From Candidimonas nitroreducens (GTDB lineage Bacteria; Pseudomonadota; Gammaproteobacteria; Burkholderiales; Burkholderiaceae_B), in the NCBI RefSeq assembly GCF_002209565.1, contig NZ_NJIH01000015.1, positions 62,001 through 126,000 on the forward strand: a stretch of DNA of 64,000 nucleotides, given 5' to 3'. Each line of letters opens with the position of its first letter. The first letter of the stretch is position 1. The notes beneath the pieces were generated by a model, which saw only the letters and a program-made list of their open reading frames with translations, did no database searches and was not told where the DNA came from. Below, in pieces: positions 16,299 to 20,972 of the stretch. The position numbers and the translations under genes were made by a program.

Positions 16299-17060
16299 TT
16301 GGATTACGCGCAAATTCCCGTAGCGACGGCGGCCTGGGGCCTGGACGGCATCCTGGTGGTCAACGTCAAGGCCTTTACCGACAGGCGCGCCCATATCGAG
16401 GGCGAGCTGGCGCGTTTCGGCCTGCGCGGCGAGCTGGTGCTGGAGTATGACGCCGAGGAAATCGGCCCGGAACTCGACAGTCTTTATTACCTGCCCGAGG
16501 CCGGCAGCCGGCTGAGCAAGGGGCACAAGTCTTGCGGGCTCAAGCATGTGGCCATCATGCAGCGCATCGTGGCGCGCGGCTGGCGGCATTGCCTGGTGCT
16601 GGAAGACGACGCCGTGCTGTTGCCGGGTTTTCGCCGGGGCGTAGAGGCGGCGCTGCGCGAGCTGCAGCGCGACTACGCCCATGTGCCCACGGTCAGCTTC
16701 ATCGGCTGCGGCGGCAATTGGTATACGCCGCGCAGTCAGCGCCGGCCGGGGCAGTCGCTGTACCCGGCGACCAAGGGGCGTTTTACGGATTCGTACATCA
16801 TCGGCGCCGAGGCGGCGCAGCTGCGGTTGGACTGGATCGCCCGCAACAAGATGCGCGCGGCCATAGACAATGAGTTCGACCGCATGGACACGGAGCTGGG
16901 CATACGCATGCTGTGGCTCGAGCCCACTGTCGTAGAGCAGGGCACCAAGCTGGGCAAGTTCGGCTCGGCGCTCGACGGCCGCTGGCCGGCGCCCGTCCAG
17001 GGCGTTCTGCACCGCATCGAGCGCTTCCGGCGCAAGTACCTGTACCAGCTCTGGCGCTGA
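16299..17060 (+). CDS. Glycosyltransferase family 25 (LPS-type)
   Basis: 253 residues from a TTG start (MDYAQIPVATAAWGL); no better start lies close. GT25 features are ILVVNVKAFTDRRAHIE at the N-terminus, GHKSCGLKHVAIM, the DXD-like LVLEDDAVLLPGF around residue 105 and a C-terminal IDNEFDRMDTELGIRMLW. These enzymes add galactose-type sugars to lipopolysaccharide cores. No other LPS genes are nearby. It stands alone 67 bp after the maleate isomerase gene and ahead of the thrS leader region. Confidence 0.8.
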   Translation: MDYAQIPVATAAWGLDGILVVNVKAFTDRRAHIEGELARFGLRGELVLEYDAEEIGPELDSLYYLPEAGSRLSKGHKSCGLKHVAIMQRIVARGWRHCLVLEDDAVLLPGFRRGVEAALRELQRDYAHVPTVSFIGCGGNWYTPRSQRRPGQSLYPATKGRFTDSYIIGAEAAQLRLDWIARNKMRAAIDNEFDRMDTELGIRMLWLEPTVVEQGTKLGKFGSALDGRWPAPVQGVLHRIERFRRKYLYQLWR

Positions 17061-17274
17061 GCAGGCCGGCCCATGGCGCGCTCCGGCTGGATCTGGGAGG
17101 ATCACCGTGCCTTGATCGCTCTGCGCGGGCTACCGTTTACTGCGTTTTATGCAACAGCTGGCGCCGAAAAGCCGGCTCCAGCGCGGATTTGGCCGGTTCC
17201 AAGGCCGGAATGCTTCCGGAGGGTGTTACACTCTTTGGTAATTCCCTGTTTCCAATTTTCCGTACCTGAACGAC

Positions 17275-17316
17275 ATGACATCGACCGCGTTGCGAACTAC
17301 TTGCTGGAATCCCTGA
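17275..17316 (+). CDS. Putative threonine-rich leader peptide of thrS
   Basis: A 13-codon ORF encodes MTSTALRTTCWNP with four threonine codons, including a tandem ACT ACT at 17296-17301. It ends 47 bases before a rho-independent terminator that precedes thrS. An extended -10-like TGTTACACT (17224-17232) lies upstream, putting transcription start near 17239. The ribosome site is weak (cctgaacgac). The role as a stalling peptide is inferred from the codons and the RNA pairing described for the attenuator entry. Confidence 0.6.
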   Translation: MTSTALRTTCWNP

Positions 17317-17384
17317 GATCGCCGCGTTTTCGTCTGTCCTTCGTACCTTAGACATCCACATGACGCGGCCGGTGCCGCGTTTTT
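17286..17384 (+). promoter_or_regulatory. Candidate threonine attenuator upstream of thrS
   Basis: Four arms with mutually exclusive pairing: arm 1 17286-17295 (CGCGttGCGA) pairs with arm 2 17319-17326 (TCGCCGCG); arm 2 17321-17327 (GCCGCGT) pairs perfectly with arm 3 17363-17369 (ACGCGGC); arm 3 pairs perfectly with arm 4 17374-17380 (GCCGCGT), followed by five T. Arm 1 lies in the leader ORF beside the ACT ACT codons. Stalling there would free arm 2 to form the 2:3 antiterminator; reaching the TGA at 17314 would mask arm 2 and allow the 3:4 terminator. This is the classic his/thr/trp logic, inferred from sequence. Confidence 0.65.
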
Positions 17385-17392
17385 GCTGTCGG

Positions 17393-17423
17393 CCGCCGCA
17401 ACGGGCGGTTCGGGGGTTTTTTT
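17393..17423 (+). terminator. Second hairpin plus T7 run before thrS
   Basis: CCGCC (17393-17397) pairs with GGCGG (17404-17408), followed eight bases later by seven T (17417-17423). The spacing to the T-run is too long for a textbook terminator. It could be a secondary terminator or a translational element just ahead of the thrS ribosome site (AGGAttaattt). Confidence 0.35.
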
Positions 17424-17443
17424 CGTTTCATCAGGATTAATTT

Positions 17444-19390
17444 ATGGTTCACATTACCCTGCCCGATGGCTCGCAGCGCGAGTTCCCCGGCCCCGTCTCC
17501 GTCAGCGAGGTTGCCCAGTCCATAGGCACCGGGCTGGGACGCGCGGCGCTGGCGGGCAGGGTGACGATGCCGGACGCGCAGCCGCGGCTGGTGGACACCA
17601 GTTTCGTCATCGACCAGGACGCCGGCCTGGCGATCGTTACGGCCAAAGACAAAGAAGGCCTGGATCTGATCCGCCATTCCACGGCGCACCTGCTGGCCTA
17701 CGCGGTCAAGTCGCTGTTTCCCGACGCCCAGGTCACGATCGGCCCGGTCATCGAAAACGGCTTCTATTACGATTTTTCCTACAAGCGCCCGTTCACGCCC
17801 GAAGATCTGCAGGCCATTGAAAAGAAGATGGCCGAACTCGCCAAGAAAGACGAGACGGTCACGCGCGAGGAATGGCTGCGCGACGACGCAGTCAAGTTCT
17901 TCAAGGGCATAGGCGAGGACTACAAGGCCGAGATCATTGCCTCGATCCCGTCCAACGAGCCCATCAGCCTGTATCGGGAAGGCGACTTCATCGATTTGTG
18001 CCGCGGCCCGCACGTGCCGTCCACGGGCCGGCTCAAGGTGTTCAAGCTCATGAAGGTGGCCGGCGCCTATTGGCGCGGCGACAGCAAGAACGAGATGCTG
18101 CAGCGCATCTACGGCACCGCCTGGGCCACCAAGGAAGAGCAGGCCGCCTATCTGACCATGCTCGAAGAGGCCGAGAAGCGCGATCACCGCAAGCTGGGGC
18201 GCGAACTCGACCTGTTCCACTTCCAGGACGAGGCCCCGGGCCTGATTTTCTGGCACCCCAAGGGCTGGACGATCTGGCAGCAGGTCGAGCAGTACATGCG
18301 CAAGGTCTACCAGGACAACGGCTACCAGGAAGTGAAGGCGCCGCAGATCCTCGACCTGTCGCTGTGGAAGAAAACCGGCCATTGGGACAACTACGCCGAG
18401 AACATGTTCACGACGGAGTCCGAGAACCGCGTCTACGGCCTGAAGCCCATGAATTGCCCGGGCCACGTGCAGATCTTCAACGCCGGCCTGCATTCGTACC
18501 GCGAACTGCCGATACGCTACGGCGAATTCGGCCAATGCCACCGCAACGAGCCCTCGGGCTCGCTGCACGGCCTGATGCGGGTGCGCGGCTTTACCCAAGA
18601 CGACGGTCACATCTTCTGCACCGAAGACCAGCTGCAGGACGAATGTGCCGCGTTCACGGCCCTGCTGCAGAAGGTCTATGCGGATTTCGGCTTCACCGAC
18701 ATTCTCTATAAGGTGGCCACGCGCCCCGACAAGCGTATCGGCGCCGACGAAGTCTGGGACAAGGCCGAGCGCGCCCTCATGGAAAGCCTGACGCGCACCC
18801 ACTGCGACTTCGAGGTCTCGCCGGGCGAGGGCGCCTTCTACGGGCCGAAGATCGAATACACGCTGAAGGACGCGATCGGGCGCCAATGGCAGTGCGGCAC
18901 CATCCAGGTAGACTTTTCCATGCCGGCGCGCCTGGGATCCGAATATGTGGACGCCGACGACCAGCGCCGCACCCCGGTGATGCTGCATCGTGCCATCCTG
19001 GGCTCGCTCGAGCGTTTCATCGGCATGTTGATCGAAAACCATGCCGGCGCCATGCCGCCCTGGCTGGCGCCCGAGCACGCGGTGGTCTGCTGTATTTCCG
19101 AACCTTCCGCACAGTATGCCGAAGAAGTTGCTGTAACCCTGAAAAAACAAGGGTTTAGAGCCAGTTCCGATTTGCGCGGTGAAAAAATCACCCGTAAAAT
19201 TCGTGAACATAGTATGCAAAAAGTACCGTACATTCTCGTTGTAGGCGACAAAGAGCGCGAAACCGCCAAGGTGGCGGTGCGCGGCCGCGGCGGCGCCGAC
19301 CTGGGGGTCATGTCCCTGGCCGATTTCGCCAGCCGCCTGCAGCAGGACATCGACAGCCGGCGCGACGCCGGCCAGGCCGCACAGGCCTGA
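17444..19390 (+). CDS. thrS: Threonyl-tRNA synthetase
   Basis: 648 residues, full length. Domains in order: TGS (about 1-62), editing domain (about 65-225, starting [13 protein letters not shown] with the HxxxH site), class II catalytic core (about 245-540, including [10 protein letters not shown] and [14 protein letters not shown]) and anticodon-binding domain (about 545-640). It charges tRNA-Thr in the cytoplasm. The ATG has AGGA nearby. Codon use changes in the last ~55 codons (19090-19260), which are clearly AT-richer than the rest; a promoter for infC may lie there. Upstream is the threonine attenuator and downstream infC. Confidence 0.98.
19172..19200 (+). promoter_or_regulatory. Candidate infC promoter inside thrS
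   Basis: TTGCGC (19172-19177) and TAAAAT (19195-19200) are separated by exactly 17 bp, within an AT-rich patch of the thrS coding sequence about 220 bp before infC. In E. coli infC also has promoters inside thrS. Motif match is 4/6 and 5/6. Untested. Confidence 0.5.
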
Positions 19391-19418: not shown

Positions 19419-19964
19419 ATCGCTACCGACAAAGCTCATCGCATCAATGGGGAAATCCGCGTTCCTGAGGTGCGGCTCATTGGTGTAGACGGCGAGCAGC
19501 TGGGCATAACAAAAACCCCGGACGCGCTCCGTTTATCTGAACAGCACGACGTGGATCTCGTTGAAATCGCGCCCAACGCCGACCCTCCCGTCTGCCGCCT
19601 GATGGACTACGGCAAGTTCAAATACCAAGAACAAAAGCGCCAGCAAGAAGCGCGCGCCAAGCAGAAGATCATCCAGGTCAAGGAAGTCAAGTTCCGCCCC
19701 GGCACCGACGAGGGCGACTACCAGGTGAAGCTGCGCAACCTGCGCCGCTTCATCGAAGAGGGCGACAAGGCCAAGGTCACGCTGCGTTTCCGCGGCCGCG
19801 AAATGGCGCACCAGGAACTGGGCATGCGGGTACTGGAACGGGTGCGCGACGACCTGGCCGAGATCTGCCTGGTGGAAGCGATGCCCAAGCTCGAGGGCCG
19901 GCAGATGGTGATGGTGCTGGCGCCGCGCAAGAAGGCGCCCAGCAAGCAGGATTCCGCCGCCTAA
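19419..19964 (+). CDS. infC: Translation initiation factor IF-3, AUC start codon
   Basis: 181 residues when started at ATC 19419, which lies 8 bases after TAAGGAG. This yields the conserved N-terminus [21 protein letters not shown]; no ATG or GTG start gives a complete protein, and a later start would remove the first N-domain strand. IF-3 binds the 30S subunit and rejects non-canonical start codons, so a rare AUC start makes infC self-limiting, as AUU does in E. coli. The N domain, basic linker ([16 protein letters not shown]) and C domain are intact. gshB follows directly; rpmI and rplT, the usual neighbours, are absent. Confidence 0.95.
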
Positions 19965-20012
19965 GTTGTCTTCCATACCGGCCGCCTTGCGGCGGCCACG
20001 CACAGGTGCCCC

Positions 20013-20972
20013 ATGCATGTGTTGTTCGTGATCGACCCCTTGCCTTTGCTGAAGGCTTACAAGGATTCCTCCGTTGCCATGATGCGGGCGCTGCAGGCTC
20101 GCGGCCACGAGCTCAGCGTAGCCCTGATGCGCGACCTGTACATCGACGAGGGCGTGGTCAAGGTGCGCGGCACCCGTATTTCCTTGCCCGAAGACGCCGA
20201 CCTGCACGGCCATGCGTGGTGGCGCGAACACGGCGAGGCGGCCGATGCGGTCTTGTCCGCGTTCGACGCCGTGGTCATGCGCAAAGACCCGCCGTTCGAC
20301 ATGGAGTACGTGTACGCCACGCACTTGTTCGACTATGCGCGGGCGCAGGGCGCGCGCATATTCAATTCAGGCGCCGCGATACGCAACCATCCCGAGAAGC
20401 TCGCCATTACTGAATTCGCGGGCTTTACCTCGCCCACGCTGGTTACTTCCGACATGGCGCGGCTGCGCGCCTTTCATGCGCAGCACCAGGACGTCATCGT
20501 CAAACCCCTGGACGGAATGGGCGGCACGGGTATCTTTCGCCTGCGCCAGCCCGAGGCCAACCTGGGTTCCATCCTAGAGACGCTCACGGCCAATGGCACG
20601 CGCACCATCATGGCGCAGCGCTATATTCCCGAGATCGTCGAGGGTGACAAGCGCATTCTCATCATCGGCGGCGAGCCGGTGCCCTATGCGTTGGCGCGCA
20701 TCCCGTTGGCCGGCGAGACCCGCGGCAACCTGGCCGCCGGCGGGCGCGGCGTGGCGCGCCCTTTGACGGCGCGCGACCGCGAGATCGCCGCGGCCCTGGG
20801 GCCGAAGCTCGCCGAGCGCGGCCTGCTGCTGATCGGCCTGGATGTCATCGGCGATTACCTGACGGAAGTCAACGTTACCAGCCCGACCTGTTTCGTGGAG
20901 ATCACCGAGCAGACCGACTTCGACGTGGCGGCCCGCTTTGCCCAGGCGCTGGAGCGCGCCGCGGAGGGCTGA
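20013..20972 (+). CDS. gshB: Glutathione synthetase (ATP-grasp)
   Basis: 319 residues. It joins gamma-glutamylcysteine and glycine using ATP in the cytoplasm. Family signs are MHVLFVIDPLPLLKAYKDSS at the N-terminus, the RKDPPFDMEYVYATHLF stretch, the ATP-grasp core VIVKPLDGMGGTGIFR and the C-terminal VNVTSPTCFVEI. It overlaps no neighbour but is 4 bp from the EIIA gene, suggesting one transcript with the PTS genes, an order seen across Burkholderiales. gshA, often upstream in that group, is not here. Confidence 0.97.
   Translation: MHVLFVIDPLPLLKAYKDSSVAMMRALQARGHELSVALMRDLYIDEGVVKVRGTRISLPEDADLHGHAWWREHGEAADAVLSAFDAVVMRKDPPFDMEYVYATHLFDYARAQGARIFNSGAAIRNHPEKLAITEFAGFTSPTLVTSDMARLRAFHAQHQDVIVKPLDGMGGTGIFRLRQPEANLGSILETLTANGTRTIMAQRYIPEIVEGDKRILIIGGEPVPYALARIPLAGETRGNLAAGGRGVARPLTARDREIAAALGPKLAERGLLLIGLDVIGDYLTEVNVTSPTCFVEITEQTDFDVAARFAQALERAAEG

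Follow-up and report, generated by a model that had tools for sequence, protein, structure and literature searches.

The thrS locus of Candidimonas nitroreducens

The window, as we call the whole 64,000-nucleotide stretch of Candidimonas nitroreducens DNA that was analysed, carries thrS behind a short open reading frame (ORF) rich in threonine codons and an intrinsic terminator, with the following features:

17224 to 17232, forward strand: probable extended -10 promoter element TGTTACACT, of the form TGnTAnAnT seen before most same-family leaders
17275 to 17316, forward strand: leader ORF MTSTALRTTCWNP, 13 codons plus stop, with counterparts in relatives
17287 to 17298, forward strand: arm 1, imperfect partner of arm 2 (from folds)
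17293 to 17301, forward strand: Arg-Thr-Thr codons CGA ACT ACT, a rare, conserved codon pair at which the ribosome presumably stalls
17319 to 17328, forward strand: arm 2, with core GCCGCGT at 17321-17327 (from sequence and folds)
17362 to 17369, forward strand: arm 3, left half of the terminator and alternative partner of arm 2 (from sequence and folds)
17374 to 17384, forward strand: arm 4 and T-run of the intrinsic terminator (from sequence)
17444 to 19390, forward strand: thrS, threonyl-tRNA synthetase (648 aa), the presumed regulated gene (ORF, with matches in relatives)
19419 to 19964, forward strand: infC, encoding IF3 and probably on one transcript with thrS (ORF 19470-19964 with an in-frame extension on its 5' side)

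The original prediction placed a 13-codon, threonine-rich ORF ahead of a terminator and thrS, and this is what lies at 17275-17316, where the codons read ATG ACA TCG ACC GCG TTG CGA ACT ACT TGC TGG AAT CCC TGA; four of them encode threonine, with ACT ACT in tandem. A short upstream ORF in which codons for the sensed amino acid are over-represented, and an intrinsic terminator ahead of the regulated gene, are both features of leader-peptide attenuators, and thrS is preceded by both. The terminator, which had been proposed with its T-run at 17363-17384, was found as a stem at 17362-17381 (GACGCGGC-CGGT-GCCGCGTT) and a T-run at 17380-17384. It is the one terminator-like site between 17050 and 17480 and, given its composition, has a low folding energy (z -2.78), while its mere presence is not beyond chance, since shuffles of this stretch average 1.1 such sites.

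The promoter-like element ends 43 nt upstream of the leader ATG and transcription would start at about 17239, some 35 nt before that ATG. Of 71 same-family leaders, 60 have the TGnTAnAnT pattern in the 90 nt ahead of their ATG, a count with no chance control; in 47 of these the pattern begins 35-56 nt from that codon. A generic sigma-70 scan of the window's thrS leader region returned no promoter. The window's own leader has no clear Shine-Dalgarno sequence, none beyond chance, and same-family leader starts as a group carry no such signal above shuffled sequence; among scored leaders of other families, a Shine-Dalgarno of at least 4 nt is present in 53/60 (shuffled, 13/60). The spacing from terminator to thrS is 16-28 nt in 62/71 same-family loci; the window has about 60 nt extra here (17385-17443) and a congener (L002) has 170 nt.

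Downstream, the product of 19419-19964 is one that we take to be IF3, and the gene probably begins at a non-ATG codon (ATC). No rpmI-like sequence was found behind infC in eight same-family loci, the window's included (19965-20013), nor was one found anywhere in the window, and the L20 gene of this genome lies on a different contig. In both other-family loci checked, rpmI is present after infC.

Conservation of the leader among relatives

Matches to thrS were found in 148/151 same-family genomes (full or partial), 242/250 from the order and 113/114 from the class. Upstream regions were compared for 170 loci and 80 named loci; other-family loci were chosen at one to six per family from the listed part of the 242 order matches, and two loci (L171 and L172) were assigned to the same family from their names. 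From the rest of the class, 40 of the 113 matched genomes were analysed, and from a sister order the best 30 of 41 loci, of which 29 were used (L309 has no recognised start). One further locus, L170, was excluded as it has no terminator.

An ATG ORF with an in-frame CGA-ACN followed by a terminator precedes thrS in 71/105 same-family and 63/145 other loci. The original prediction had asked that the ORF and both stems be conserved in relatives, and these loci do share the threonine leader, the terminator and, close to the leader's stop codon, an arm 2. Examples are the leaders of Achromobacter (MFFPPARTTTRNFRPMSR), Cupriavidus necator (MTPRTTTAGKRQ), Burkholderia (MTPRTLTETTSERR), Janthinobacterium (MTPRTTTKLWE), Comamonas (MTPRTTTTQSAGR), Roseateles (MTPRTTTTTPTRV) and Vogesella (MFKRTTTTRISR). 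Judged by its named relatives, the window's family is probably Alcaligenaceae. Four same-family loci (L004, L014, L064 and L171) have no threonine leader but retain the terminator and a promoter-like element of the form TGnTACACT, so thrS would there start behind a bare terminator.

It can be argued that the leader is translated, since threonine is kept in one frame while third bases vary. At the second and third codons after CGA, threonine stands in frame in 58/71 and 52/71 same-family leaders with the third base free; in both other frames it occupies those positions in 3/142 and 8/142 cases. With shuffles that preserve dinucleotides as the control, a threonine-dense ATG ORF (at least three Thr in six codons) was found in 78/103 same-family upstream regions against approximately 2.6% of shuffled ones. 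A few of these 78 ORFs look accidental, for example in L043 and L047, where the ORF seemingly runs antisense through a tRNA gene. With shuffles that preserve base composition only, as also used for the operator hairpin, Shine-Dalgarno and both fold tests, a short threonine ORF followed by a T-run was found in 62/105 same-family and 71/145 other loci, against 0.8% and 0.3% of shuffles.

A covariance model (R1) searched against the 151 same-family genomes points to the same place. Each of its best 98 matches is from a different genome and lies on the thrS strand within about 170 nt upstream of thrS (positions compared by eye with the thrS matches); 70 of the 98 genomes had been used to build R1, the remaining 28 had not. 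The first match away from thrS is in genome G112 at an E-value of 2.7e-6, the window itself scores 59 bits, and 128/151 genomes have a match at E 0.1 or better, with many weaker ones elsewhere in the genome. Five of the six genomes of one genus (G002, G089, G112, G132 and G151) hold 7 to 15 R1 matches each, the extra ones being weaker, away from thrS and perhaps ordinary terminators with the same stem sequence.

Alternative pairings and a proposed mechanism

The segment GCCGCGT at 17321-17327 has the same sequence as the right arm of the terminator and can pair with ACGCGGC at 17363-17369, exactly the alternative that had been predicted. Arm 2 had further been said to pair with 17286-17295 inside the leader ORF; such a pairing exists, but it is imperfect, joining 17287-17298 to 17316-17327 with interruptions and G-U pairs. 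The arm 2 core begins 25 nt from the first base of the ACT after CGA and 5 nt past the stop codon. Across the family, with arm 2 defined as the best complement of arm 3, it starts 23-30 nt after the first threonine codon in 61/71 leaders and between -10 and +13 nt relative to the stop codon in 63/71. This is the geometry in which a stalled ribosome would leave arm 2 free and a ribosome at the stop codon would cover it.

The covariation of the arms that had been suggested as a check appears between families but, for helix 2:3, not within the window's own. Here helix 2:3 is paired in 92.6% of cells without covariation over shuffles, helices 1:2 and 3:4 show covariation somewhat above shuffles, and own and swapped arms fit equally (1159/2000 permutations); because the arms are nearly invariant, covariation within the family is not demonstrable. 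Between families, the fit of arm 2 is better to the arm 3 of its own locus than to a swapped one (16.2 vs 14.2, 0/2000 permutations), as it does in the 48 loci with a distinct arm 3 (16.7 vs 14.6, 0/2000). With one locus for each of 17 families the values are 14.65 and 13.55 (median p 0.038; worst of 40 draws 0.106), which suggests a modest co-change of the arms. Pairs that illustrate it are GGTTCGCGC with GCGCGGACC (L121), GCTAGTCG with CGGCTAGT (L181), TCGAGG with CCTCGA in Burkholderia (L218) and CTGAGCC with GGCTCAG in Aquitalea (L225). A first per-locus shuffle test of arm 2, with dinucleotides preserved, was weak (27/134 with p <0.05), partly because the terminator loop was mostly omitted; in a Massilia-like group this loop belongs to arm 3. 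Removal of rows whose terminators were weak or distant left 131/134 for the arm-swap test and 130/134 for each of the two fold tests.

When full-length transcripts are folded at equilibrium, nearly all loci form the terminator whatever the ribosome state. Just 6/69 same-family and 2/61 other loci fall below 0.5 on stalling and above 0.5 at the stop codon (control 3/130), with a small significant shift between states (Wilcoxon p 3e-5 and 2e-4; control 0.43). Such a slight shift would be expected if the choice precedes the transcription of arm 4, and an attenuator here would depend on a kinetic decision, since the full-length folds favour the terminator throughout. As these folds barely separated the ribosome states, folding before arm 4 was added: the transcript was taken up to the terminator loop, ribosome footprints were masked and the probability that arm 3 pairs with region 2 was computed. 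In a separate set of folds the masks lay one base off, with the ATG taken at 17276 rather than 17275. The medians for a ribosome stalled, at the stop codon and absent are 0.73, 0.02 and 0.19 for 69 same-family loci, 0.65, 0.08 and 0.14 for 61 others, and 0.44, 0.20 and 0.24 for shuffled sequences. The shuffled control too has some difference between stall and stop, which the real loci exceed (p 4e-19 in the family and 6e-8 in the others); the combination of a stall value above 0.5 and a stop value below 0.5 is found in 47/69, 36/61 and 90/390 shuffled cases, respectively. A ribosome on the start codon gives medians of 0.68 (same family) and 0.69 (others), so this test does not single out the threonine codon, since such a ribosome frees arm 2 almost equally; what the modelled folds show is a need for arm 1 to be covered with arm 2 left open. 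The window itself gives 0.87 stalled, 0.02 at the stop codon, 0.85 at the start codon and 0.70 with no ribosome, and arm 1 looks weak here because the ribosome-free state already favours the antiterminator. A mutually exclusive antiterminator pairing, another feature of the class, is thus present in the folds and in the co-change of the arms between families.

On its parts, their conservation, their geometry and these folding alternatives, all observed here, we conclude that the element is very probably a ribosome-mediated transcription attenuator of thrS(-infC), and the claim that a four-arm layout of this kind controls thrS is strengthened by the conservation and by the folds made before arm 4. 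We infer the translation of the leader, the stalling, the termination and the response to threonine as follows. RNA polymerase would start about 35 nt before the leader ATG. With threonyl-tRNA plentiful, the ribosome would reach the stop codon and cover arm 2, arm 3 would pair with arm 4 and transcription would end at about 17384. With threonyl-tRNA short, the ribosome would wait on the threonine codons after CGA (17296-17301) and cover arm 1, leaving arm 2 free 25 nt downstream to capture arm 3 before arm 4 exists, and the polymerase would read on into thrS.

What exactly the leader senses may be questioned, as CGA and ACT are both rare in thrS yet dominant in the leaders. In the first 600 codons of 53 thrS genes, ACT makes up 6.3% of threonine codons and CGA 3.9% of arginine codons. 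CGA is followed by ACT in 109/134 leaders; these, like alignment A2, were selected for an ATG ORF containing CGAAC, which makes that motif invariant among them by construction, while the frequency of ACT and the counts by threonine density are not built in by that selection. Among 125 ORFs selected by threonine density alone (250 loci), 117 contain Arg-Thr, and CGA accounts for 137/260 arginine codons. As far as could be searched, the conserved pair is new. It possibly reflects a function within arm 1, a site made slow on purpose or the choice of the threonine codon most sensitive to shortage; the theory that attenuators favour such codons is discussed in PMC1183508. The preference makes codon choice in attenuators a testable question. 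An attenuator that used the fixed pair to sense a general slowing of translation, or arginine together with threonine, would also suit the MTPRT leaders, 17/43 of which have just two or three threonine codons. We consider this unlikely, as most same-family leaders carry the further, third-base-free threonine codons described above, the regulated gene is thrS, and CGAAC may in some families act as part of arm 1.

That the site is an ordinary intergenic terminator of the upstream gene beside a chance ORF is very improbable: a same-strand ORF does end at 17060 and about one terminator-like site is expected by chance in the stretch, but many genera have the ORF, the spacing and the terminator ahead of thrS, the best 98 R1 matches are all at thrS, and a promoter-like element stands between the upstream ORF and the leader.

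Range of the leader and known systems

The known mechanism for thrS in E. coli is a translational operator, a tRNA-like element in the 5'-UTR to which ThrRS binds, according to the portion consulted of PMC8058203. It regulates thrS, as the element proposed here would, and an anticodon-arm-like hairpin, with a 7-nt loop resembling the tRNA-Thr anticodon loop, precedes the gene in 23/40 other class members (22/1000 shuffles). The loop is mostly CTCGTAN, and such hairpins apparently represent the E. coli-type operator across a wide range. They lie about 25-75 nt before thrS (loci L256-L295). Just upstream of the thrS start the hairpin is found in 0/105 same-family loci and in only 5/145 others, two of which (L238 and L242) are named outside Burkholderiales; autoregulation by ThrRS in the E. 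coli manner is hence a highly doubtful explanation for the window. Two of the 29 sister-order loci have a hairpin by this definition, neither with a CTCGTAN-type loop.

The sister order, probably Xanthomonadales because the named Rhodanobacter and Lysobacterales loci look alike, has short threonine mini-leaders before thrS in 19/29 loci, defined as a short ATG ORF with two threonines in four codons and then a T-run; the same definition yields 0/40 among the other class members and 1.1% in shuffles of these. MTRTGTHI, MSTTTAHC and MNVSFRTTT are examples, and nine of the 19 have CGAAC in the upstream stretch as well. The leaders in L299-L328 are of 6-16 codons and are mostly followed by a terminator of GGGCGC or GGCGC type. 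The attenuator appears where an E. coli-type operator was not found, which would make this a traceable swap of mechanism on one gene; the apparent swap is new as far as could be searched. Tentatively, we suggest that in Burkholderiales and the sister order control of thrS may have moved from a tRNA-mimic operator to a leader attenuator, with CGA-ACT retained as a dedicated sensor at a single site, which would let even a leader with two threonine codons work. If the leader is an attenuator, an essential gene is under widespread control of this type in a group to which Burkholderia, Achromobacter and Cupriavidus belong.

In Firmicutes thrS is controlled by T-boxes, but direct reading of tRNA or of a metabolite by a T-box or some other RNA, with the ORF incidental, is scarcely credible here, as the leader matches no Rfam family and keeps its threonine codons in one frame with free third bases. 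At gathering thresholds the leader had no Rfam match, T-box included; at E-values up to 10, 17100-17460 gave just two weak matches to unrelated families. At the leaders, gathering and permissive searches returned nothing above a family cut-off, and tRNAs elsewhere. A plasmid search gave no match.

No published thrS leader attenuator in Betaproteobacteria was found in the open-licence literature searched. In the main text of one terminator-based survey, as far as available, threonyl-tRNA synthetase is mentioned once, for E. coli (PMC2965389). Leader-peptide attenuation is thus known as a kind, and the thrS case in these bacteria is new as far as could be searched. In the enteric attenuators pheM-pheST and thrL-thrABC, the position of the ribosome chooses between antiterminator and terminator. 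These share the proposed mechanism and act on other genes, and the window's leader matches none of the Rfam families. A parallel in target is uORFC-8-2, a cysS leader attenuator of Rhodobacterales, which likewise has tandem cognate codons and a terminator before an aminoacyl-tRNA synthetase gene in Proteobacteria, but senses Cys rather than Thr, belongs to the alphaproteobacteria and is a different RNA (PMC8632094, in the parts consulted). For thrS itself, the leader peptide MKRVRPFLETTPGFVPAR of thrL-thrS in Streptomyces lividans has been proposed as an attenuator and resembles the window's leader in placing threonine codons in a leader peptide before thrS (PMC8079986, from the accessible sections). 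It differs in phylum and peptide, in its leaderless start and in that no clear intrinsic terminator is reported in those sections (PMC8079986), whereas leaders of the window's type have a conserved four-arm layout with a terminator and an Arg-Thr motif.
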